Notes under the pieces: model-generated
Seen by the model: only the letters and a program-made list of their open reading frames with translations
What the model was told of the DNA's origin: nothing
Database searches by the model: none
Part shown: positions 27,432 to 37,515 of the stretch, piece after piece
Layout of the letters: every line of letters starts with the position of its first letter
Position numbering within the stretch: the stretch's first letter is position 1
Translations under genes and position numbers: made by a program
NCBI GenBank assembly: GCA_021732785.1
Contig: JAKFUG010000034.1
Span: 1-57,097, forward strand
Length of the DNA: 57,097 nucleotides
Reading direction: 5' to 3'
Origin: Planctomycetaceae bacterium
GTDB lineage: Bacteria; Planctomycetota; Planctomycetia; Planctomycetales; Planctomycetaceae

Positions 27432-28139
27432 TTATGCGGCCAAAAGTTCTTCTGCAATCCGATGCAGCATCGCGTCCAACCGGGCATCAATTTCCCCATG
27501 GCGCGTTTCCAATCGGCAATCACCCGGCTGCAAGGTCCCATCGGCAATCAGTTCGGGTGCGGAGCACGCCGAGAGACTTTGCACGACTTGTTCCGCTTTG
27601 TCGCCCAAGCGTTCCAAGTCAGCGGGGTGAAGAAACACGCGGAGTTGCGGTTGGCCCGCGGCTAATCGCAGGGCTTCGGAAATCATACCCGTAGCCAGTT
27701 CCGGTCGTGCTGCAAGATTGGTTCTGAGCAGCTTGGAAGCGATGGCCACGCCGAGTTCAATTGCCACGGTTTCCCAGCGGACGAGCCATTCGTCGCGCTC
27801 CTGTTGCAATGCCGATGCGACTTTACTGAGCGCCGGCAGTGTCGTTTTGAGATGCTCGCTGAAACGCTGATCGGTGAGCTGGCGGGCGTGCTTGTCAATT
27901 TGTGCGGCGGCTTCTTCCATCCCCGTCCGCCGACCCGTTTCGCGACCTTCACCGATGGAACGCTGTCGGATGGCATCGGCATCGCGCTGCGCAGTGGCGA
28001 GAATTTCCTGCGCCTGTTGCTTGGCATCGGCGATTTGCGCCAAAGCCTGGGCACGCAGATCTTCAAAATTGAAGATGGCCGCCGGCCCGGGTTGCCGGGT
28101 CGAGTGCGCTTTCAACACGCGTGGCGAGTCTTGAGACAT
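27432..28139 (-). CDS. fliH: flagellar assembly protein FliH
   Basis: The protein has 235 residues from the ATG at 28139, a start chosen because the 14 codons before it look non-coding; no clear ribosome binding site precedes it. FliH regulates the export ATPase FliI and tethers it to the export gate in the cytoplasm. A long charged coiled coil (about 25-85, LRAQALAQIADAKQQAQEIL) is followed by the FliH/HrpE/YscL domain (VAIELGVAIASKLLRTNL) and, near the end, PQLRVFLHPADLERLGDKA and LQPGDCRLETRHGEIDARLD, the family's conserved tail. It is the last recognisable flagellar gene of this run. Confidence 0.92.
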   Translation of the reverse strand: MSQDSPRVLKAHSTRQPGPAAIFNFEDLRAQALAQIADAKQQAQEILATAQRDADAIRQRSIGEGRETGRRTGMEEAAAQIDKHARQLTDQRFSEHLKTTLPALSKVASALQQERDEWLVRWETVAIELGVAIASKLLRTNLAARPELATGMISEALRLAAGQPQLRVFLHPADLERLGDKAEQVVQSLSACSAPELIADGTLQPGDCRLETRHGEIDARLDAMLHRIAEELLAA

Positions 28140-28190
28140 AGGAAAGTCAGCGAAGAGAGGGTAGTGAAAAATGAATGCCAAAACCGAAGA

Positions 28191-29180
28191 TTACGCGATC
28201 ATCTGCTCGCCGCCGCCTGCCACAATAATCTCGCCCGAGTCTTCCAGACGGCGGACAATGTCGACAATCTGCTGCTGGACGCCTTCCACATCGGAGAGCT
28301 TGATCGGCCCCAGAAATTCCATTTCTTCTTTGAGCGTCTCCGCGGCTCGTTGCGACAGGTTGCCGAAAATCTTCTGTCGAATCTCGTCGGAAGCCCCTTT
28401 GAGCGCAATCGCCCACTGATTGTTTTCGACTTCCTTGAGCAAGCTGCGAATGGCTTTGTCGTCCAGCTTCAGCAAGTCGTCAAACACGAACATCAAGCGG
28501 CGAATCTCATCGGCCAGCTCGGCATCCTCCTGCTCCAGGCTTTCCAGAATCCCTTTGTTCGTCATGCGGTCGGTGACGTTGAGAATCTGGGCCACCATCG
28601 GCACGCCGCCCCGTTTTTCCATCGACTGGCTGAACGTGCTCGACATCCGCAACTGCAAACTGCGCTCGACGTCGGCGATGACATCGGGGTTCGTCTGCTC
28701 CATGTTGGCCACGCGTCGAATCACGTCGAGTTGCTTGCTCGACTCCAGCCCGCTCAACATTTCGGCGGCCAGCGGTGCCGGCAAATGCGACATGATCAGG
28801 GCGATGGTTTGCGGATGTTCTTCGGAAATGAATGTCAGCAGATTGTCGGCCCCGGCCTTTTGCAGAAAGCCGAACGGGACGGAGTTCATCGACTGCCTGA
28901 CCGATTCCAGAATCTGGCCGGCATTATCTTTGCCGAGCGATTGTTCCAGCAGCTCGTTGGCGAAGTTGATCCCGCCCCGTTCAATGGGGACGAGTTCTTT
29001 GAAGTGGCCGTCGAATTCCTCGAGCACGCTTTGTTGCTGATCGCGCGTGACGTCGTCCACCTTCGCGATTTCGAGCATGATCTTTTCGACCTGCTCGCGC
29101 GGCAACTGACTGAGCACCTCGGCCGACAGGGGCTTGTCCAGGCTCAGCAACAGAATGGCGGCTTTTCTTACGGCGTCCAT
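28191..29180 (-). CDS. fliG: flagellar motor switch protein FliG
   Basis: The protein has 329 residues, the usual length. FliG forms the upper ring of the rotor, contacts FliF above and the stator below, and sets torque and direction. Start: RKAAILLLSLDKPLSAEVLS. Middle domain: LLTFISEEHPQTIALIMSHL, with the EHPQTIAL motif. Armadillo linker and C-terminal motor domain: VFDDLLKLDDKAIRSLLKEV with the charged torque helix, then ALKGASDEIRQKIFGNLS. It overlaps nothing and lies 49 bases after fliF and 51 before fliH. The ATG at 29180 is preferred over a TTG six codons earlier. Confidence 0.97.
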   Translation of the reverse strand: MDAVRKAAILLLSLDKPLSAEVLSQLPREQVEKIMLEIAKVDDVTRDQQQSVLEEFDGHFKELVPIERGGINFANELLEQSLGKDNAGQILESVRQSMNSVPFGFLQKAGADNLLTFISEEHPQTIALIMSHLPAPLAAEMLSGLESSKQLDVIRRVANMEQTNPDVIADVERSLQLRMSSTFSQSMEKRGGVPMVAQILNVTDRMTNKGILESLEQEDAELADEIRRLMFVFDDLLKLDDKAIRSLLKEVENNQWAIALKGASDEIRQKIFGNLSQRAAETLKEEMEFLGPIKLSDVEGVQQQIVDIVRRLEDSGEIIVAGGGEQMIA

Positions 29181-29229
29181 AACGGATACGAATCGCAAAG
29201 AGAGTGACGTTCAATACAACTTCGCAGGC

Positions 29230-30825
29230 TTACTTGGCGGCCTGCAACCATCGGCTGATGATGGCCGCGGTCGCTTCCGGATTATCGCGCACCAGACCTT
29301 GCAACATGTCACGCTTGGTGAGTTCCTGTACCGGTTCGGCTGCTTCAGCCACCGCATTGTTCGCCGACGGGGAAGACATCATGGTGGGGAACGCCGGCGG
29401 GGTGTCTGCGGGCATCGCGGGCATGGAACGCCGGACCATCATCAGGGCGAAGAGGGCCATCACGGCCATCATCACCGTGTTACCCCATTGCTTCATCCAT
29501 TCGGTCATCGTTTCCATGAACGACGGCTTCACATCGGGCAATGTCGTCGACACGCGATCGACCGAAGTGACTTTCACCGCGGTGGTGGGCGAATCCGCGG
29601 GAATTAACCGCTTGACCGACTCCGTCACGTTCGCCAGAACTTCTTTTTCGATGGCGACAATATCCAGTTTGGTGGCATCCGCTTCGCCCGCCGCCTTCCG
29701 CTGCGCGGCCACATTCCGGTAATAGTCGCGGGGAATCCCCACGCTGACCTGCACTGCTTTCGGCATCGCACCGATCAGTTCCTTCTGCGAAGTTTCGAAC
29801 GAGACCCCGTTGAGGTTCTGGCTGCTTTCGTCGCTGAATTGGCGGTTGCGATCCATTCCCGGCGTCGCGCTGACCGAGCCGGGGCGGTTGGCCACCTGCC
29901 CTCCTTCACCTTTGGACGGCTGTTGTTGCAGCGTGTCCTTGAGTTTCATTTCCTGCGAGAACAGCGGGGCAGTCTTCTTGGGATCAATAACCTGGCTGTT
30001 GACCCGCGTCCACAAGTAAGGATCGATATCGACATTGACGGTGACACCCACGTCGGGGATGTAGGACAGGTCGCGCTGAATCTGATGCTGATAGGTGCTC
30101 TCGAATTCACGGATCCGCGAATTCACCTTGCTGTTCAGCGGATCATCCGCCGCGTCCCCTTTGAAACTGATGCCGTTGACGTTATCGAACACCGTCACAT
30201 CGGATGGTTTCAAATCAGGGACCATGCTCGCGACGGCGGCTTGAATGGAACTGACCAACCGCGTGGAGAGTTCCCGCCGATTCCGCGGCGTGACGGTGAC
30301 ATTCGCCGTCGTGTGAGACTTCTGGCTCCAGCTTCGTTTGCCGGAGGAAGCAATCGCCACGCGTGCGTCCTGCACTTCGGGAACCGCCCGAATGATCCGG
30401 CGAATTTCTTTCAGCAGCATCGCATCTTTGCGTTCCTGACGTTCTTTCTCGGTACTGAACGGGCCCATCGATTCGTACTGTTTGAGCAGTTCTTCACCCA
30501 GGCCGTTGGGCATGGCATCGAACTTCAACAAGGCAGCGTTGTACTTGTCCCGGTCTGCTACAGGGACCATGATCCGCTGGCCTTCGCGGCGGAATTCTTT
30601 CAAACCTTCTTGTAGAAACGCTTGTTCCGCGCTGATGAGTTCTTCCGTCGTGTAAACCTTGCCCCACGAGAGCGCGGTGAACGAATCGCCCCGCGGCTGA
30701 TAGAGCAGCCAACCAAAGCCGGCCATCACCATCAGCGGCACCACCATCAGCGTGGCCCGCTGACTCGGTGCCATGCCGCGGTAGAGTTCCATGAACTGGC
30801 GGGTGATGCGTTGTAAAACGTCCAT
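29230..30825 (-). CDS. fliF: flagellar MS-ring protein FliF
   Basis: The protein has 531 residues. FliF forms the membrane-supramembrane ring that founds the basal body. Membrane helix 1 lies at about 24-42 (ATLMVVPLMVMAGFGWLLY) and helix 2 at about 442-464 (WGNTVMMAVMALFALMMV). Between them are the ring-building motifs (SWGKVYTTEELISAEQAF, VQDARVAIASSGKRSW, ANVTVTPRNRRELSTRLVSS) and a long insertion in the periplasmic collar region. The C-terminal end (LTKRDMLQGLVRDNPEAT) is the FliG-binding segment. The gene starts 127 bases after fliE, a gap filled by an inverted repeat. Confidence 0.97.
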   Translation of the reverse strand: MDVLQRITRQFMELYRGMAPSQRATLMVVPLMVMAGFGWLLYQPRGDSFTALSWGKVYTTEELISAEQAFLQEGLKEFRREGQRIMVPVADRDKYNAALLKFDAMPNGLGEELLKQYESMGPFSTEKERQERKDAMLLKEIRRIIRAVPEVQDARVAIASSGKRSWSQKSHTTANVTVTPRNRRELSTRLVSSIQAAVASMVPDLKPSDVTVFDNVNGISFKGDAADDPLNSKVNSRIREFESTYQHQIQRDLSYIPDVGVTVNVDIDPYLWTRVNSQVIDPKKTAPLFSQEMKLKDTLQQQPSKGEGGQVANRPGSVSATPGMDRNRQFSDESSQNLNGVSFETSQKELIGAMPKAVQVSVGIPRDYYRNVAAQRKAAGEADATKLDIVAIEKEVLANVTESVKRLIPADSPTTAVKVTSVDRVSTTLPDVKPSFMETMTEWMKQWGNTVMMAVMALFALMMVRRSMPAMPADTPPAFPTMMSSPSANNAVAEAAEPVQELTKRDMLQGLVRDNPEATAAIISRWLQAAK

Positions 30826-30952: not shown

Positions 30953-31255
30953 TTAGAACCGCATCTGCTGAATTTCGTTGTAGGCATCCATCAGCTTGTT
31001 CCGAATCTGCATCGTCAGCTTCAACGCCAAATCGGCTTCACGCATCGCAGTGAAGGATTCGACCAGGGACAGTTCATCGCCGAGTAAATTCTGCTGGACG
31101 GTCGACTGCGATTTGTTGCCCAGATCCTGCGTGGTCTGCAGGGCTTCGAGCAACATTTCCTGAAACCCGACCGGAGCGCCCGTCGCGGCGATGGACGGCG
31201 TGGCGGGTGAGGCAATGCCGCCGACGCCGGAACTCATGGACAATGGGCTGATCAT
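30953..31255 (-). CDS. fliE: flagellar hook-basal body protein FliE
   Basis: The protein has 100 residues. FliE links the MS ring to the rod. The C-terminal half has the family pattern: GFQEMLLEALQTTQDLGNKS, then LSLVESFTAMREADLALKLT and IRNKLMDAYNEIQQMRF. The first 25 residues are Ser/Gly/Ala-rich and disordered, as in other members. It is exported by the flagellar type III route and so has no signal peptide. It follows flgC by 20 bases, a sign of one transcript. Confidence 0.95.
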   Translation of the reverse strand: MISPLSMSSGVGGIASPATPSIAATGAPVGFQEMLLEALQTTQDLGNKSQSTVQQNLLGDELSLVESFTAMREADLALKLTMQIRNKLMDAYNEIQQMRF

Positions 31256-31275: not shown

Positions 31276-31686
31276 CTAACCGAGCAACTTGTAGGTGGTT
31301 TCGATCATGTCGCGGGTCACCTGCATGGTGGAGACGTTGGCTTCATAAGCGCGCGACGCTTCCATCGCGTTCACGAATTCGGTGATCACGTTCACGTTGG
31401 GATAACTGACATAGCCTTGCGCATCGGCATGGGGATGGCCGGGGTCGAGCACTTTCCGCGGCGGCGTTTGCGTATCCACATCGACGGTCGCGGTGACCCC
31501 CACGCCACGAGTTTGAGCGGCGGCGTTGTTCTGCGCTTCGAGCACCACCAATCGGCGCTGAAACGGCGACGCTTCGCCCTTCTCATTCTGCGTCGTATGC
31601 GAATGTGCGATGTTCCCCGCGATCGTGTCGATCCGCAATCGCTGGGCCGCCAACCCACTGGCACTGACATCGAGTGTGCGAAACAT
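31276..31686 (-). CDS. flgC: flagellar proximal rod protein FlgC
   Basis: The protein has 136 residues. The N-terminus FRTLDVSASGLAAQRLRIDT then AGNIAH is the rod-family signature (N-terminal helix plus ANIAN-like motif). The C-terminus (YVSYPNVNVITEFVNAMEAS, then RAYEANVSTMQVTRDMIETT) matches the conserved YVxxPNVN and RAYEAN blocks of FlgC. It builds the proximal rod with FlgB, FlgF and FliE. It lies 93 bases after flgB and 20 before fliE. Confidence 0.97.
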   Translation of the reverse strand: MFRTLDVSASGLAAQRLRIDTIAGNIAHSHTTQNEKGEASPFQRRLVVLEAQNNAAAQTRGVGVTATVDVDTQTPPRKVLDPGHPHADAQGYVSYPNVNVITEFVNAMEASRAYEANVSTMQVTRDMIETTYKLLG

Positions 31687-31779: not shown

Positions 31780-32250
31780 TTACACTCGTTCCGAAATCAC
31801 CGTTTGCAACTGGTCGTATTGGCCTTGCAGCACCTGCACTGCAAATTGTTGCCGCAGGGCGTTCTTCGTCATTTCGAGGAACTGATGCTCCAGGCTGCGA
31901 TTGTTCGCGTCCTGAAATGTCAGCCCCGGTTGTTCTGAAGGTGCCACCGCTTTGAACAATGTCTCGGGGAACAAATCCTCGATGCGTGTGGGAACCGCAC
32001 CACTCATGCCGGGACTCAGCGGTTGCTGAAGTCCTGGCGAATCGGTCCCCGATGCGCGGGGTGTGTGCGATTGGGCGACCGCCCGCTGCAATGCCGTCTG
32101 GAATGCCGCGGCGGGCAAGTCTCGGGTGCGGTACCCGGGCGTGTCCACATTGGCGATGTTCCCGGCCAACACTTCCTGCCGCCGCTCGGTGAACCGCGCG
32201 ACCTGCTTCAGCAGCGAAATGTTGGTCGAACCCAGCAGCGGTTGCAGCAC
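31780..32250 (-). CDS. flgB: flagellar proximal rod protein FlgB
   Basis: The protein has 156 residues. The rod-family signature is present near the start: RRQEVLAGNIANVDTPGYRT, with the GNIANVDTPGY motif. The C-terminal helix (HQFLEMTKNALRQQFAVQVL) fits the family. The central loop is Pro/Ser-rich and variable, as usual. It is the first rod subunit above FliE. The gene is the first structural flagellar gene after the regulator. The 211-base gap ahead of it, which contains a repeat, may hold its promoter. Confidence 0.96.
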   Translation of the reverse strand: MLQPLLGSTNISLLKQVARFTERRQEVLAGNIANVDTPGYRTRDLPAAAFQTALQRAVAQSHTPRASGTDSPGLQQPLSPGMSGAVPTRIEDLFPETLFKAVAPSEQPGLTFQDANNRSLEHQFLEMTKNALRQQFAVQVLQGQYDQLQTVISERV

Positions 32251-32300
32251 GATGGATGTCCAATCCGTATCACATCGATCAAAGCCGGCGCGAACAAAGT

Positions 32301-32417
32301 CCCTTCTCCCCCGTCTGCGGGGGAGAAGGTGGCCGAAGGCCGGATGGGGGGGTGATCGTTTCTATTCGCCCCCTCACCCTGGCCCTCTCCCCCGCGGACG
32401 GGGGACCGGAGGGTTCG
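32301..32417. repeat. double-hairpin GC-rich repeat ahead of flgB
   Basis: The first hairpin has perfect 11-base arms (32302-32312 and 32319-32329, CCTTCTCCCCC with its complement). The second has arms around 32388-32405 (TCCCCC with GGGGGA) extended by CCCTC and GAGGG flanks. The two hairpins share the CTCCCCCG...CGGGGGAG core and are joined by a GGCCGAAGGCC palindrome. This is the pattern of a dispersed repeat family common in planctomycetes and some proteobacteria. Confidence 0.75.
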
Positions 32418-32461
32418 TGCCAATCGGAACAGGTTCCCGACCGGCGTTGTGTTGATGTCGT

Positions 32462-33964
32462 TTAAGCGGCCCGTTGTTCCGCGGCCGGCTCCTCGAACGG
32501 AGCGGCGACCGGAACCCACGGCTTGGCGTTCGAGCCCGGGCCGCCACGCGGGGGATAGCCGTAATCCCGCAGTTTCCCCGACAGCGTCCGAATTCCAATC
32601 TGCAACGCCTTCGCCGTCTTCTCACGATTCCCCGCGAATCGGGCGAACGTCGTTTCAATCAACCGGCGTTCCATTTCCTGGAGTGTCAAACCGCACGGGA
32701 CATCGTCGGTGGCGGTTACGGTCATCCACGGTTCGAGCAATGCCGCGGTGAGGCGACGACTGCTGTCGATTGTGCAAGCCCGTTCGATCACGCTTTCGAG
32801 TTCCCGCAGGTTGCCCGGCCATTGGTAACTTTGCAGCAAATGCAAGGCATCCATCGTCAGGCTGCGAGGAGCGAGACCTTCCCGAGCGGCGAACTTGCGA
32901 AGGGCAAATTCCGCCAACGCGGCGATGTCTTCCGGGCGGGATCGCAGCGACGGGACATCGATCCGATTGATCGCCGCGTCCTGGTGCAGTTCCGAACGGA
33001 ACAAGCCGCGGGCCATCAATTCGTCGAGATCCACGCTGGTTCCGAGAATGACGCGGACATCAATCCGGACGCGATCACCGGTGCGATCGTGTTCGAACCG
33101 TTGTTCCCGCAGCACGATCGCCAGCTTGCGTTGCAGTGGCAGCGCGATGCAGTTGACGTTATCGAGCAGCAGCGTGCCGCCGTCGGCTTGTTCGAAGCGC
33201 CCCGATTGCCGCGGGCTGCCGCCGGATGCCGCGATACCGAACAGTTCCTGTTCGAGCGTTTCCGCGGAGTGGACGCTGCAATCGATGGTGACGAACGGTC
33301 GATGAGCCCGGCGGCTGGCATCGTGAATGCCTTGGGCCACGAGATCGAGGCCGCTGCCGGTTTCACCGACGAGCAAGACGGCGGCGTTGTGGTCCGCCAT
33401 CTGCTGGACGCCGTGCCGCAACTGCTGCATCGCGGGGCTTTGTCCCACCATGTCGCGCAGGTTGCGATTGCAGAGCTGCCGGCGGAGCCGCTTGATCTCG
33501 TTCTGCGAACGGGATCGGTGGCAAGCCGCAGCCACCGTCAACTTGAGGAAGTTGGCGGCATACGGGACGGCGAGCAACTCGATGCCGATCGCCGAAGTGA
33601 GCGTCGGCGAGACGTCGCTGAAGGATTCAGACGCCAGGCAGATGAGCTGCGTGGCCCATCCGCGTTGCTGAATGGTTCCCGCGAGTTGTCCAGCGGAATC
33701 GCCGTTCGCCAGCGGGCCGACGAAGCAGACTTCGGGGGTCGCCGCCAGCATCGATTGCAGGGCGGCGTCCACGGAGTCCACCGACTGGGCCTCGTATCCA
33801 GCACTGCGAAGGTCCTGCGTCAGACTGTCCGTCAGTGCAGAATCCACACTGACAATCAGTACCGGCGGGGAAGCCTCCACGGTGGCTGCCACAGGGGCCG
33901 TGGTCGTCGGTCGACCGGGGAAGGGAATGATGTCGGGATGCGCCTGAGTCATGCGGGGCACCAT
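32462..33964 (-). CDS. degenerate NtrC-type AAA+ regulator with Fis HTH (pseudo-activator) in the flagellar run
   Basis: The protein has 500 residues in three parts. Residues 34-145 look like a receiver, but the phosphate-accepting Asp region reads EVCFVGPLANGD, without the usual Asp. Residues 170-400 are an AAA+ domain of sigma-54 activators: MVGQSPAMQQL, ELFG, GGTLLLDN, LRSRPEDIAAL, and QWPGNLREL. The Walker A lysine is Leu206 (GETGSGLD), Walker B has Asn269 in place of Glu, the GAFTGA loop is missing after ELFG (11 residues instead of about 14), and the arginine-finger Arg is Asp329. The Fis-type HTH (about 432-470, AKALQIGIRTLSGKLRDYG) is intact. It probably controls flagellar genes by DNA binding alone; this is inference. 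Confidence 0.88.
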   Translation of the reverse strand: MVPRMTQAHPDIIPFPGRPTTTAPVAATVEASPPVLIVSVDSALTDSLTQDLRSAGYEAQSVDSVDAALQSMLAATPEVCFVGPLANGDSAGQLAGTIQQRGWATQLICLASESFSDVSPTLTSAIGIELLAVPYAANFLKLTVAAACHRSRSQNEIKRLRRQLCNRNLRDMVGQSPAMQQLRHGVQQMADHNAAVLLVGETGSGLDLVAQGIHDASRRAHRPFVTIDCSVHSAETLEQELFGIAASGGSPRQSGRFEQADGGTLLLDNVNCIALPLQRKLAIVLREQRFEHDRTGDRVRIDVRVILGTSVDLDELMARGLFRSELHQDAAINRIDVPSLRSRPEDIAALAEFALRKFAAREGLAPRSLTMDALHLLQSYQWPGNLRELESVIERACTIDSSRRLTAALLEPWMTVTATDDVPCGLTLQEMERRLIETTFARFAGNREKTAKALQIGIRTLSGKLRDYGYPPRGGPGSNAKPWVPVAAPFEEPAAEQRAA

Positions 33965-34011: not shown

Positions 34012-34461
34012 CTAGAGATCGATGTCCAACCCGAGTCGAGAACCGATCATCGGGGCCGGACCATAAGCCGAGTCAATCAGTCGCGATGAGCTCAGCTGCG
34101 CGAGTTCGCGCTCCGAAGCATCGCGACGCGCGGTCAATTCATTCGTGCCGAGTTGTTCTTCAGCCAGCAGCGACTGCAGCAACGCTTCGGTTTCTTCCAG
34201 CAGTGCGTCACCGGCGGTTCGCAAGGAAGGCGACAACATGCCGCGGTCGTTCTTCCAGCGTTTCCAGGGGGCATTCGGCGGCCCGACGAGTTCATCGACG
34301 AGACGTTGTTTCATTTGCAGCAGTTCGATCAAAGCCTCGTAGTTGTCGGCTTCAATGAACGGAATTTGTTCACGGGAAAGTTCCAGCAAAGCCCGGCAGC
34401 ATTCCCGCCGCGTGCGAAACGCTGCGAGGTATTCGTCGCCGGTGAGTGCGGGAAAGGACAT
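34012..34461 (-). CDS. FlgN-like flagellar export chaperone
   Basis: The protein has 149 residues from the ATG at 34461. It is all-helical with the FlgN-like pattern: CCRALLELSREQIPFIEADN, then YEALIELLQMKQRLVDELVG, and later ALLEETEALLQSLLAEEQLG. FlgN binds hook-associated proteins FlgK and FlgL and brings them to the export gate in the cytoplasm. The position, 47 bases ahead of the flagellar regulator, supports a flagellar role. The family is short and poorly conserved, so this rests on pattern and context. No strong ribosome binding site is visible at the chosen start. Confidence 0.55.
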   Translation of the reverse strand: MSFPALTGDEYLAAFRTRRECCRALLELSREQIPFIEADNYEALIELLQMKQRLVDELVGPPNAPWKRWKNDRGMLSPSLRTAGDALLEETEALLQSLLAEEQLGTNELTARRDASERELAQLSSSRLIDSAYGPAPMIGSRLGLDIDL

Positions 34462-34510
34462 GGTTTTCGCTGATCTTGACGAGAGAGGTGACGTTGTCGG
34501 ACGACGTGAA

Positions 34511-37054
34511 TTACTGCTGAACCTGCCGCACCCGATCGAGCCACAATTCCCATTCATTGCGCGTGAGATTGGTGGTCGGCGCGGTGAAGGCCGCGGTCGG
34601 AATCTGCTGTTGATCCATGATGACTTTGGCTTGTTCGAGGACGCTGCGGGCCTCGATGTTTTTGCCGAGTTGGGCGTAGGCCTGGGCCATTTGCACATAA
34701 GCGGTGAGCACGCGGACGTCTTGCGGATAGCGATTCACCGCCGCGGTGTACGCGGCGATGGCTTCTTCGTAGCGGACGCGCTGGTAGCGGCCCAATTGGT
34801 ATTGAGCGTGCGGCAATTCGAACCAGGCACTTTGCAGAATCACGGCATCCAGTTCGTTGAGACGATCTTTCTGCGCTTCCGGGGTCAGGTCGTTGCGAAC
34901 CGTTTTGAACGCCAACATCGCTCGTTCCAGTGTTCGCTCGTACTGCGCCTGAGTTTGCTGCCGGGCGTTATCGGTTTCGGCATTCACGGACTGCCGTTCA
35001 ATCCATTCCGCATACAGATGCAACGACTTACCGAAGTAGTACTGGGCCTCCGCGAGGCGCGGCGATTCCGGATAACGATTCAGATAAGCAGCCCATTGAC
35101 GGATCGCCTCTTGCGAGCGTGAGGCGACGGCATTCCACAGGACTTCGGGGTCGACCGGTTCGTCATCGTTTCGGCTCGAAGCTTTCCGCTTGTCGAGCTC
35201 AGCCGTGTCGGTCAGCAACCGGGCCAGTGAATGCTGTGCATCGCGCCATTCCATCGCCGCCGGCGTCAGCCCGTTCGCGGTTAACATGCCCCGCCAGGCG
35301 GCTTCCGCTTCATCGCGACGATCGAGTTCCAACAGGCATTGCCCCCGCAGCAATTGCGCGGAGAACACGTTCGGACTCGTTGGCATCGTCTGGAGAATCT
35401 CGTCGACATTGCTCAAGGCTTCGGTAGGCCGATCGAGATCGAGCAGCACCTGGGCCCGGCGAACCATCGCGACCGGACGTTCCGAATCGACATCCGTGCC
35501 CTGAGCCAGAAACTCGTCATATTGAGTCAGAGCACGAACGTAATCGTGACCGCGGGCAAAGTGATCGGCACTCGACCACAACGCGTTCGTGTGGTTCACC
35601 GAATCACGACGCGATTCGGCCAGTTCCGCGTAGGCTTTGCCGCTGTCGCACCAGCGTCGGCGTTCTTCGGCCCGTCGCCGCTTTTGTTCGCTGTAAGGAA
35701 GTCCCGCGAGTTCTTCCGAAAGCGCTTCCGCGGCCCGCTGACGGACACGGGCGGTCAGTTCGTTGGCTTGATCGCGGGCAAACAGCGGAATCATCAATTC
35801 GGTCATCGCGACCGCTTCGGAGTAGCGGCCTTGCCGGGTCCATTCCGTCCATGCCGCCAGCACCTGTTGCCGAACGTCTTCAATCTTCAGCCAGCGATTC
35901 TGGAAATCCTCTGCCCGGCGAATCGACCGGAGTACATGGCTGAAGGTGCGTAAGGCTTTTTCGTGAGCGCCGTCTTCCTGCTGCAGGCGGCCTAACATCA
36001 CCTGCGCGGCGAAGGCTTCGTCGCTTCCCTCGAATCGATCGATCGTCTTCTGAAAATACTCGTTGGCTTCATGCCGGATTTCGAGCTGATGGGCATCGGC
36101 GGCGGCGGCGACATCGTGTTGACGCACGAGTTGATTCGCGGCGAATCCCATCAGATACAGGGCTTGCCGGGGATAACGCGGGTCGCCATCGGTCGCTTCG
36201 CCAACCGGTTTCAACACGCTGACGGCTTCGGCGAAGCGACTATCCTGAATGAGCTTCCAGCCTTTGAGCAGAATCGAACCAAAACGGCCGGCATCGGTGG
36301 CCTTCACTTCGGCGAGTGCGGCTTCGGCTTCTTCCGGCCGGTTCAATCCCACGAGGATGTCGGAGCGCTGCAGCAGGATGTAATCGCGATCGATGGCGTC
36401 GGAAGGTGCGGCAAGTGCGGCAGTGTTTAATTCCAGCGCTTTGCCCAGTAATTCCGGTGTGCGATCGCCCGACTTGAGATAAATGTCCGCCAGCAACTTC
36501 GCCGCGGCGGCTTTCCGCGGGGCATCATGTTCGAAAGCGTCGTTCAGCAACGGACCCGCCGCGCTGAATTCCTTGCCGTCCAGCAAACTCTTGCCGAGGG
36601 CGAAGCTCCATTCCGGTCGGCGTTCTTCTGGAATCTCGGACTGTCCGGCTTCACGCAGGAAACTCGCGGCGACGGTGTATTGGGCCGTGCGATTTTCGGA
36701 AGTGAGATCGGCGTCGGTTTCGGCTTCCTGAAAGGCCGCCATCCCCAGAATGTAGGCGATACCACCGGAGAACTCTTCCGGATGGAATTGCGAGTCCTGC
36801 AATTTTTTGGCGATGTCGCGGGCGGCTTCGATCTCTTTCGCATCGAGTTTCAGCAGCGCGGACTGGAACTTTTCTTGCGGTGTGGCTTCGGGCGGACCGC
36901 TGAGGAACCACGCGATCAGACCACCGAGCAGCACGACCGCGGAAAGCCCACCACCCAGCAGGATCGTTCGTCGCGAGAACCGTCGTCGTGGAGCCTCCGC
37001 CGCGTCATGCCCTTTGGCAACGTGAGCAACGGTGGGGGATGACGGCGACGACAT
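34511..37054 (-). CDS. membrane-anchored TPR protein heading the flagellar run
   Basis: The protein has 847 residues from the ATG at 37054; the eight codons before it are probably not used. A basic N-terminus (EAPRRRFSRRT) precedes one membrane helix (ILLGGGLSAVVLLGGLIAWF, about residues 31-50). The remaining 790 residues are TPR-like helical hairpins, for example EARSVLEQAKVIMDQQQIP and QRVRYEEAIAAYTAAVNRYP. It should face the periplasm with a short cytoplasmic tail. The FlgN-like gene follows after 49 bases on the same strand, so it may belong to the flagellar transcript. Such a protein is not part of the classic flagellar set. Role unknown; scaffold is likely. Confidence 0.75.
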   Translation of the reverse strand: MSSPSSPTVAHVAKGHDAAEAPRRRFSRRTILLGGGLSAVVLLGGLIAWFLSGPPEATPQEKFQSALLKLDAKEIEAARDIAKKLQDSQFHPEEFSGGIAYILGMAAFQEAETDADLTSENRTAQYTVAASFLREAGQSEIPEERRPEWSFALGKSLLDGKEFSAAGPLLNDAFEHDAPRKAAAAKLLADIYLKSGDRTPELLGKALELNTAALAAPSDAIDRDYILLQRSDILVGLNRPEEAEAALAEVKATDAGRFGSILLKGWKLIQDSRFAEAVSVLKPVGEATDGDPRYPRQALYLMGFAANQLVRQHDVAAAADAHQLEIRHEANEYFQKTIDRFEGSDEAFAAQVMLGRLQQEDGAHEKALRTFSHVLRSIRRAEDFQNRWLKIEDVRQQVLAAWTEWTRQGRYSEAVAMTELMIPLFARDQANELTARVRQRAAEALSEELAGLPYSEQKRRRAEERRRWCDSGKAYAELAESRRDSVNHTNALWSSADHFARGHDYVRALTQYDEFLAQGTDVDSERPVAMVRRAQVLLDLDRPTEALSNVDEILQTMPTSPNVFSAQLLRGQCLLELDRRDEAEAAWRGMLTANGLTPAAMEWRDAQHSLARLLTDTAELDKRKASSRNDDEPVDPEVLWNAVASRSQEAIRQWAAYLNRYPESPRLAEAQYYFGKSLHLYAEWIERQSVNAETDNARQQTQAQYERTLERAMLAFKTVRNDLTPEAQKDRLNELDAVILQSAWFELPHAQYQLGRYQRVRYEEAIAAYTAAVNRYPQDVRVLTAYVQMAQAYAQLGKNIEARSVLEQAKVIMDQQQIPTAAFTAPTTNLTRNEWELWLDRVRQVQQ

Positions 37055-37515
37055 GGCGCGACAATCCTGACGGCGCAACGCGAACGCGTCGCACCGTGTG
37101 CAATCAAACGGGAATTGAATTCGTGATGGGAGTGGAGAACCAGTCGAAAGGCGCGATGACTGGAGTCACCAGCAGTGCCTGTCGCAAGGAACGACAGGAG
37201 GCTGCGGGAGACTTCAGTCACCAGCACGGACAACAGCGAACAGGGAACGGCGAAGGACAACAACGAGCGTTGAAGATCGCGGTCCATGAACGGCAGTGGC
37301 CGTGTGGGACGAACGTCGAAATCGAATTGTTTGTGAACGGGAGTTGTGGGCGGAGTGTTACCTGCAAAGGCTGCCGAATGTCAATGCGTCTTCAGCACGA
37401 TTTGCCGAATCGATAGTTCGGTACCGTTTGCCCCTGTCGGAAGGGTGAAAATCGGCCAAAAACGGGGAGTTTATTGTACTTTTGGGTAAAAGCGGAGGAC
37501 GTTGGCACGCAGTTA
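37055..37515. other. 461-base intergenic region ahead of the flagellar run
   Basis: This should contain the promoter for the TPR-flagellar genes on the minus strand. I looked for a -24/-12 site (TGGCAC-N5-TTGC) on that strand and found none that fits, and no clear sigma-28 or sigma-70 pair. No open frame has a ribosome binding site. No repeat stands out. Confidence 0.35.

Follow-up and report, generated by a model that had tools for sequence, protein, structure and literature searches.

What remains of a flagellar activator once the residues that make it an activator have gone, and what is such a protein kept for? The question is raised by an ORF of 500 aa, here called REG, encoded by the minus strand at 33964 to 32465, with its stop codon at 32462-32464, in the window, i.e. 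the whole 57,097-nucleotide stretch of planctomycete DNA that was analysed. A first-pass annotation had read REG as an NtrC-type sigma-54 activator that lost its activator motifs under selection for a new role.

Organization and degenerate motifs of REG

REG is part of an operon-like run on one strand, in the order TPR, FlgN-like, REG, flgB, flgC, fliE, fliF, fliG and fliH (Table 1). The gene was described as lying directly ahead of flgB, and flgB is indeed next, after a gap of 211 bp. Repeat-like translations are found in this gap (32251-32461), and the corresponding gap in locus L053, an independent record 90% identical to REG, contains GC-rich inverted-repeat-like DNA.

The NtrC-type domain order was recovered in Pfam matches to Sigma54_activat (128 bits), the AAA+ lid and the Fis-type HTH. 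No Pfam receiver model matched REG; the receiver was seen only in the predicted structure, where residues 34-135 form receiver-like alternating strands and helices. This predicted model retains the receiver, a long linker helix, AAA+, lid and HTH (mean pLDDT 82, pTM 0.53). Its AAA+ core aligns with the AAA+ domain of FlrC at a target-normalised TM of 0.93, and VpsR is among its fold matches. Because its input alignment comprised mostly intact activators, the model carries little information on the lost loop.

Table 1. Features of the window discussed in the text (positions in the window)
Feature	Coordinates	Strand	Basis
REG, degenerate FlbD/NtrC-type regulator (protein P0002), 500 aa	32465..33964	-	ORF, Pfam, alignment with own-genome homologues
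Pseudo-receiver domain, aa 34-135	33560..33865	-	phospho-acceptor column Gly83, acidic pair lost; predicted model
Pseudo-AAA+ core, aa 172-340	32945..33451	-	Leu206, Asn269, Asp329, no GAFTGA; Pfam, alignment
AAA+ lid, aa 341-414	32723..32944	-	Pfam
Fis-type HTH and near-invariant tail, aa 425-479, IGIRTLSGKLRDYGYPPRGGPGSN	32528..32692	-	column conservation, profile search
TPR protein gene, leading the operon-like run; its start codon is uncertain	34511..37078	-	Pfam, synteny
157-aa ORF, weakly FlgN-like (E 0.0016; 19.3 bits, below the cut-off of 30.5 bits)	34012..34485	-	
flgB	31780..32250	-	profile match
flgC	31276..31686	-	profile match
fliE	30953..31255	-	profile match
fliF	29230..30825	-	profile match under curated cut-off, plus synteny
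fliG	28191..29198	-	profile match
fliH	27432..28181	-	profile match under curated cut-offs, plus synteny
Sigma-70-type promoter TTGACA-N18-TAACAC, upstream of the operon's first gene	37355..37384	-	conserved among relatives
ftr-like palindrome CGGCAGCCTTTGCAG, 9 of 10, in the -35/-10 spacer	37362..37376	-	motif scan
Second ftr-like palindrome CGGCAAATCGTGCTG, 9 of 10, 31 bp upstream	37393..37407	-	motif scan

Motifs of REG were read in alignment with the 13 other sigma-54 activator homologues of the same genome, in which rpoN is also present. Walker A reads GETGSGL, with Leu206 in place of Lys, and Walker B reads LLLDN, with Asn269 in place of Glu. GAFTGA is absent, the segment between ELFG and GRFEQADGG being IAASGGSPRQS. 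The Arg of FRxDLYYR, which corresponds to the finger Arg in PspF numbering, is Asp329, and the preceding Arg323 is still present. In the receiver, Gly83 occupies the phospho-acceptor column and the acidic pair is gone. The first-pass annotation had named the receiver Asp, Walker A, Walker B, GAFTGA and arginine-finger changes; all of them stand, and neither Lys, Glu nor GAFTGA was recovered by realignment in two alignments. Measured against an NtrC-type sigma-54 activator (bEBP), REG has the AAA+ fold, the lid and the Fis-type HTH, and lacks GAFTGA, the Walker A Lys, the Walker B Glu and the finger Arg. Sequencing error was rejected as a cause, L053 having the same Walker A, Walker B and finger states. 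A second own-genome activator homologue without recognisable GAFTGA, with Walker A and B intact, lies in locus L013 (G000:C13:61320-61817).

Distribution and selection inside and outside the family

A profile of the HTH and tail (A2) was used to search 61 genomes of the window's family, its own included. Matches at E <= 1e-33 were obtained in 39 genomes, cleanly split from the next match (3e-16), and 22 genomes (assemblies 87-100% complete) had no REG profile match. Among orthologues read in the family (40 aligned rows, i.e. 38 fetched relatives, the window and L053, plus 20 further members), GAFTGA is missing in 60 of 60, many of which share genera. The Walker A Lys is kept in 8 of the 40 rows, the Walker B Glu in 3 and the finger Arg in 2; no row has all three of these ATPase residues and 28 have none, and Asp is found at the receiver column in 24. 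The 20 further members, all from genera already sampled, include none with GAFTGA, two with the Walker A Lys pattern and one with the Walker B pattern, and every one of them carries the HTH signature. So many losses had been thought unusual for a planctomycete flagellar activator; the losses are real, but they extend throughout the family and are not a one-off.

Conservation of the family rows is concentrated in the DNA-binding part, with at least 90% identity in 30 of 43 HTH columns, 14 of 174 AAA+ columns and 0 of 106 receiver columns. The tail, YPPRGGPGSN, is near-invariant across the family. REG and its L053 counterpart share 449 of 500 aa, and the dN/dS ratio between them is 0.118 overall, 0.33 in the receiver (aa 34-150), 0.043 in AAA+ and 0.023 in the lid; in the HTH and tail there are zero replacements (dN/dS 0). 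Frames of 360-639 aa, stop-free in the matched part, are present in the 39 genomes, the shortest being L146 (360 aa), in which the receiver part is missing. Short ORFs with a REG-like HTH (91 and 160 aa) were also noticed at L193:4685-4957(-) and G577:C63:13477-13626, in genomes that carry a full REG as well.

Fifteen REG-negative loci were fetched, all with a strong FliG, and REG is missing from its slot in all 10 in which both neighbours are readable. Over the 61 family genomes, FliG is strong (E <= 1e-38) in 30, divergent (E 1e-9 to 1e-31) in 25 and without a match in 6, and these classes may represent two flagellar lineages in the family. Apparent natural FliF-FliG fusions occur directly downstream of REG in four loci, L128:3145-4950(-), L135:2882-4957(-), L140:2949-4952(-) and L148:2690-4432(+). 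Three of them join YscJ_FliF to FliG_C, and in the L148 ORF it is joined to the FliG middle domain; no flgB, flgC or fliE match was found in the fetched stretches of these loci.

The profile was also run over 392 genomes of the phylum and 248 of the class. Matches outside the family (E 1e-16 to 1e-26) came from other families of the class, in 40 genomes, and 149 of the 248 class genomes had no match at 1e-12. Thirty of the 40 loci were fetched, in sets of 10 and 20. All of the first 10, six of which are close relatives from one family, encode intact NtrC-type activators in the same slot before flagellar basal-body genes, and flgB was found in 9. From the next 20, 17 were read whole (L234 and L252 failed the HTH pattern and were excluded; L236 is cut by a contig end), and GAFTGA, Walker A and Walker B are present in 17 of 17, while the strict finger pattern failed in 3. 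GAFTGA is thus present in all 27 outside orthologues read whole. Counts inside and outside the family are not independent, because the samples share genera or close relatives.

In a tree, the 40 family rows form one branch (support 100/100) and ten outside rows another (100/99). Bootstrapping stopped slightly short of convergence and the tree is effectively unrooted; orthology is therefore judged from synteny and from the likeness of the HTH. On grounds of synteny and parsimony, an intact flagellar activator would have been the ancestral form, and GAFTGA would have been lost at the base of the window's family. The first-pass annotation had allowed that intact homologues in the same clade would mark REG as a decaying copy. 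Intact homologues were found solely in other families, which points to the ancestral state and not to decay of the window copy, and REG itself is under purifying selection.

Promoter and palindromes of the flagellar operon

The gap between REG and flgB was scanned for -24/-12-like sites with weights that we take to represent the sigma-54 consensus. Sites were found in 23 of 28 loci outside the family versus 0 of 17 inside; the family set includes L053, and for two of its loci boundaries were assigned manually, at the end of REG in L125 and across the whole gap in L185, where flgB was not found. All of the first 10 outside loci have a site scoring at least 8.4, in 8 of them 47-50 bp before the flgB start, and 13 of the 18 later ones have one (in L241, without flgB, 500 nt were used as the gap). 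Before the window's flgB the best score is 6.4 (shuffle p 0.36). Five hook/filament stretches of the window's genome gave two -24/-12-like matches of at least 9.0, one of them ~450 bp before a hook-like gene and on its strand, together with six scattered palindromes. Because of these matches, loss of the sigma-54 site is claimed for the REG-flgB gap only.

Upstream of the operon start, or of REG where it stands alone, TTGACA-N16/17/18-TATCAC was found in the family at 10 or more of 12 matching positions in 32 of 39 genomes, versus a mean of 1.7 and a maximum of 6 in ten letter shuffles. The consensus was derived by eye from this first sample, and the same sequences were then scored; L053, a near copy, was left out, and L118 and L119, where the TPR gene is missing or cut, were counted with regions anchored on REG, not on operon starts. 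The spacer is 18 bp in 26 of the 32 and 17 bp in 6. The promoter recurs in 13 of 20 later family genomes of the same genera, one with a doubtful 16-bp spacer. At the solo loci of genus g34 it is missing in 6 of 7, and the seventh has a doubtful 16-bp spacer. The flagellar operons of L195 and L196, which lie apart from REG, have neither this promoter nor a -24/-12 match of at least 8.8; REG stands alone in L195, with one palindrome at the separate flagellar operon, and beside a FliF-FliG ORF in L196.

Exact TTGACA-N18-TATCAC matches number 15 in the 61 genomes versus 10 for the reversed-pattern control, and 10 of the 15 are at the loci read in this analysis. In G055 another is followed, ~1.6 kb on, by a FliG_C match within a frame of 590 aa. 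The window's genome gave no indication that this promoter is used generically (4 one-mismatch matches versus 8 in the reversed control); one other match there precedes an asparagine synthase-like ORF, named by eye. In the window, three 30-bp segments that cover the promoter (-310 to -221) are 97-100% identical to L053. About 276 bp (37079-37354) separate the promoter from the presumed start of the first gene; in relatives this distance is 72-519 bp.

Taken with the regulator, the promoter type of the operon appears to have changed in the window's family. The promoter is more common where REG is present (32 of 39 genomes) than among REG-negative genomes with enough upstream DNA (4 of 9; p 0.03). 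REG is evidently dispensable, since 22 of 61 genomes lack it and the promoter persists in those four.

A de novo dyad scan (5-base half-sites, spacings 0-12) of the 39 family upstream regions against 12 dinucleotide shuffles ranked CGGCA-N5-TGCCG first of 13,312 dyads, in 15 of 39 upstream regions versus 1.0 in shuffles. This dyad matches the published FlbD site CCCGGCAxxxxxTGCCGGG (PMC3333781). Sites with at least 9 of 10 matches were found in those 15 regions and in 7 of 20 further ones. In other families the same palindrome resides in the REG-flgB gap, in 9 of the first 10 and 13 of the 18 later loci, compared with 0 of 17 inside the window's family. Its association with REG, 15 of 39 genomes versus 1 of 9 without REG, is not significant (Fisher p 0.24).

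Offsets of the sites from -35 cluster at +8, -22 to -33 and -104 to -117, others being scattered. An offset of -107 is shared by L121, L123 and L124 and by L253, L254 and L257 of the same genera; offsets of -104 to -117 were found in L120, L122, L127, L128, L148 and L255 (just 8 of 10 in L120 and L128). In the window, L053, L114, L127 and L137, the -35/-10 spacer itself contains a site matching at 8 or 9 of 10. CGGCA or TGCCG is present in 9 of 32 spacers versus 1.4 in shuffles, this word pair ranking third of 512, after two pairs with which it overlaps. The upstream palindrome of the window is identical in L053. In the gapped alignment, however, its 30-bp segment scores 0.36, and the sequence past it is unlike that of L053. 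An ftr-type site at flagellar genes, as expected of a FlbD equivalog, is thus present in the window. REG scores 205.7 bits against the equivalog model NCBIfam NF050807, short of the cut-off of 750, as do three intact orthologues from outside the family (335-349 bits).

Proposed role and comparison with known systems

At the sequence level, REG has lost its motifs and is under purifying selection, its orthologues elsewhere are intact in the same slot, and the operon has another type of promoter, with palindromes. We read these features as probable marks of a former FlbD-type activator that now serves as a DNA-binding repressor of the sigma-70-type promoter of its own operon. An FlbD-type flagellar sigma-54 activator would have been the ancestor of REG. 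The sigma-54 contact (GAFTGA) would have been lost in the family ancestor, with ATPase and receiver residues drifting afterwards, an order that we infer, and REG would have persisted as an ATP-independent DNA-binding regulator. It is predicted to occupy the CGGCA-N5-TGCCG palindromes at the promoter, one of which sits in the -35/-10 spacer of the window and the other 31 bp upstream. Because an operator lies within the promoter spacer, repression of the own operon, as negative feedback, is the most likely outcome. The pseudo-AAA+ domain may be retained as an oligomerisation scaffold. DNA binding and the repressor half of the ancestral function would probably have been kept, and the activator half lost.

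Selection for a non-activating, DNA-bound role, as proposed at first pass, is supported by the family-wide loss of GAFTGA, the near-invariant HTH, the low dN/dS and the lack of -24/-12 sites in the 17 family gaps. Among the roles suggested then, a DNA-bound repressor fits best and a dominant-negative partner is less likely. With more reserve, at somewhat less than even chances, we suggest that in the whole family a flagellar protein with dual activator and repressor roles became purely a repressor, independent of ATP. Loss of the sigma-54 contact would have gone hand in hand with loss of the -24/-12 promoter, and operators would have come to stand at a new sigma-70-type promoter at the start of the operon. 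ATPase and receiver residues would then have drifted, with the HTH frozen and the pseudo-AAA+ ring left only to hold operators together.

Sites 104-117 bp upstream of -35 count against repression in that they suit activation or looping equally, and the -107 class leaves room for activation. REG could be an ATP-independent activator of the sigma-70-type promoter from upstream ftr sites, comparable to the GAFTGA-less NtrC of Caulobacter and R. capsulatus, which regulate sigma-70 promoters (PMC10274813). The near-constant upstream offsets (-107; -104 to -117) and the higher frequency of the promoter in genomes with REG agree with this. However, sites internal to the spacer in the window and four relatives, the excess of half-sites in spacers and the promoter kept in four of nine genomes without REG speak against it, and we regard activation as rather unlikely.

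Gradual erosion, with REG nearing deletion and retained by chance in many lineages, would account for the series from intact genes in other families to degenerate ones in 39 and no profile match in 22 of the 61 family genomes. It would also suit the lack of REG between its neighbours in 10 readable of 15 signature-negative loci, the lineage-specific residue losses and the receiver-less frame of L146. Chance retention is nevertheless improbable in view of the dN/dS values, the stop-free frames in 39 genomes and the HTH and tail near-invariant over deep branches. More improbable still is that REG acts as a dominant-negative or mixed-ring partner of an intact activator. The predicted, constrained AAA+ fold and the 13 homologues encoded with rpoN in the same genome would allow this, but no own-genome protein closely matches the REG HTH (next matches at E 2e-5 or weaker), which makes such a role less likely, and there is no -24/-12 site before flgB as the partner's target. 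A DNA-binding repressor thus remains our preferred reading of REG.

This locus offers a natural record of how a sigma-54 circuit is dismantled, from intact activator and promoter, through an activator-dead protein with another promoter, to no REG at all. It makes testable the order in which an AAA+ activator loses its parts and the survival of such proteins as repressors, and it is also of interest for how planctomycetes control their flagella. In its available part, a 2025 sigma-54 regulon survey counts the Planctomycetia with the classes in which motility is to some degree under sigma-54 (PMC12316311), which fits the intact activators in other families. No paper in the open-licence collection searched combined "planctomycet" and "FlbD", and none of the matches listed for planctomycete activators and flagellar regulation, by title and abstract start, described a REG-like case.

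Among known systems, FlbD of Caulobacter crescentus and DVU1063 of Desulfovibrio vulgaris resemble REG as flagellar NtrC-type proteins with an atypical receiver and the same type of palindrome (PMC3333781, from the excerpt available). FlbD is reported to bind ftr4 upstream of fliF and repress, and to activate later genes (PMC3930126), and class II genes are repressed by it (PMC3096577). FlbD is a sigma-54 activator, whereas in REG the GAFTGA motif is gone, as are the residues of the Walker motifs and the finger. GAFTGA-less NtrC of Caulobacter and Rhodobacter capsulatus shares with REG the missing loop and sigma-70 promoters, the action of REG being predicted, and in Caulobacter it represses its own operon (PMC10274813). 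According to the accessible text, that NtrC requires its phospho-Asp for activation and serves nitrogen control; in contrast, REG has lost the phospho-Asp and belongs to a flagellar operon. VpsR, TyrR, DhaR, HupR and YplP are, like REG, activator homologues with a defective GAFTGA, and the excerpted source describes none as flagellar or as a family-wide change accompanied by a promoter change (PMC3162934). FleQ of Pseudomonas aeruginosa is flagellar and represses a sigma-70 promoter without ATP hydrolysis (PMC10723142, in part), but, unlike REG, it still has its GAFTGA loop; FleQ is also an ATPase and an activator at sigma-54 promoters. GAFTGA-less activator homologues at sigma-70 promoters and repression without ATP hydrolysis, as by FleQ, are already known.
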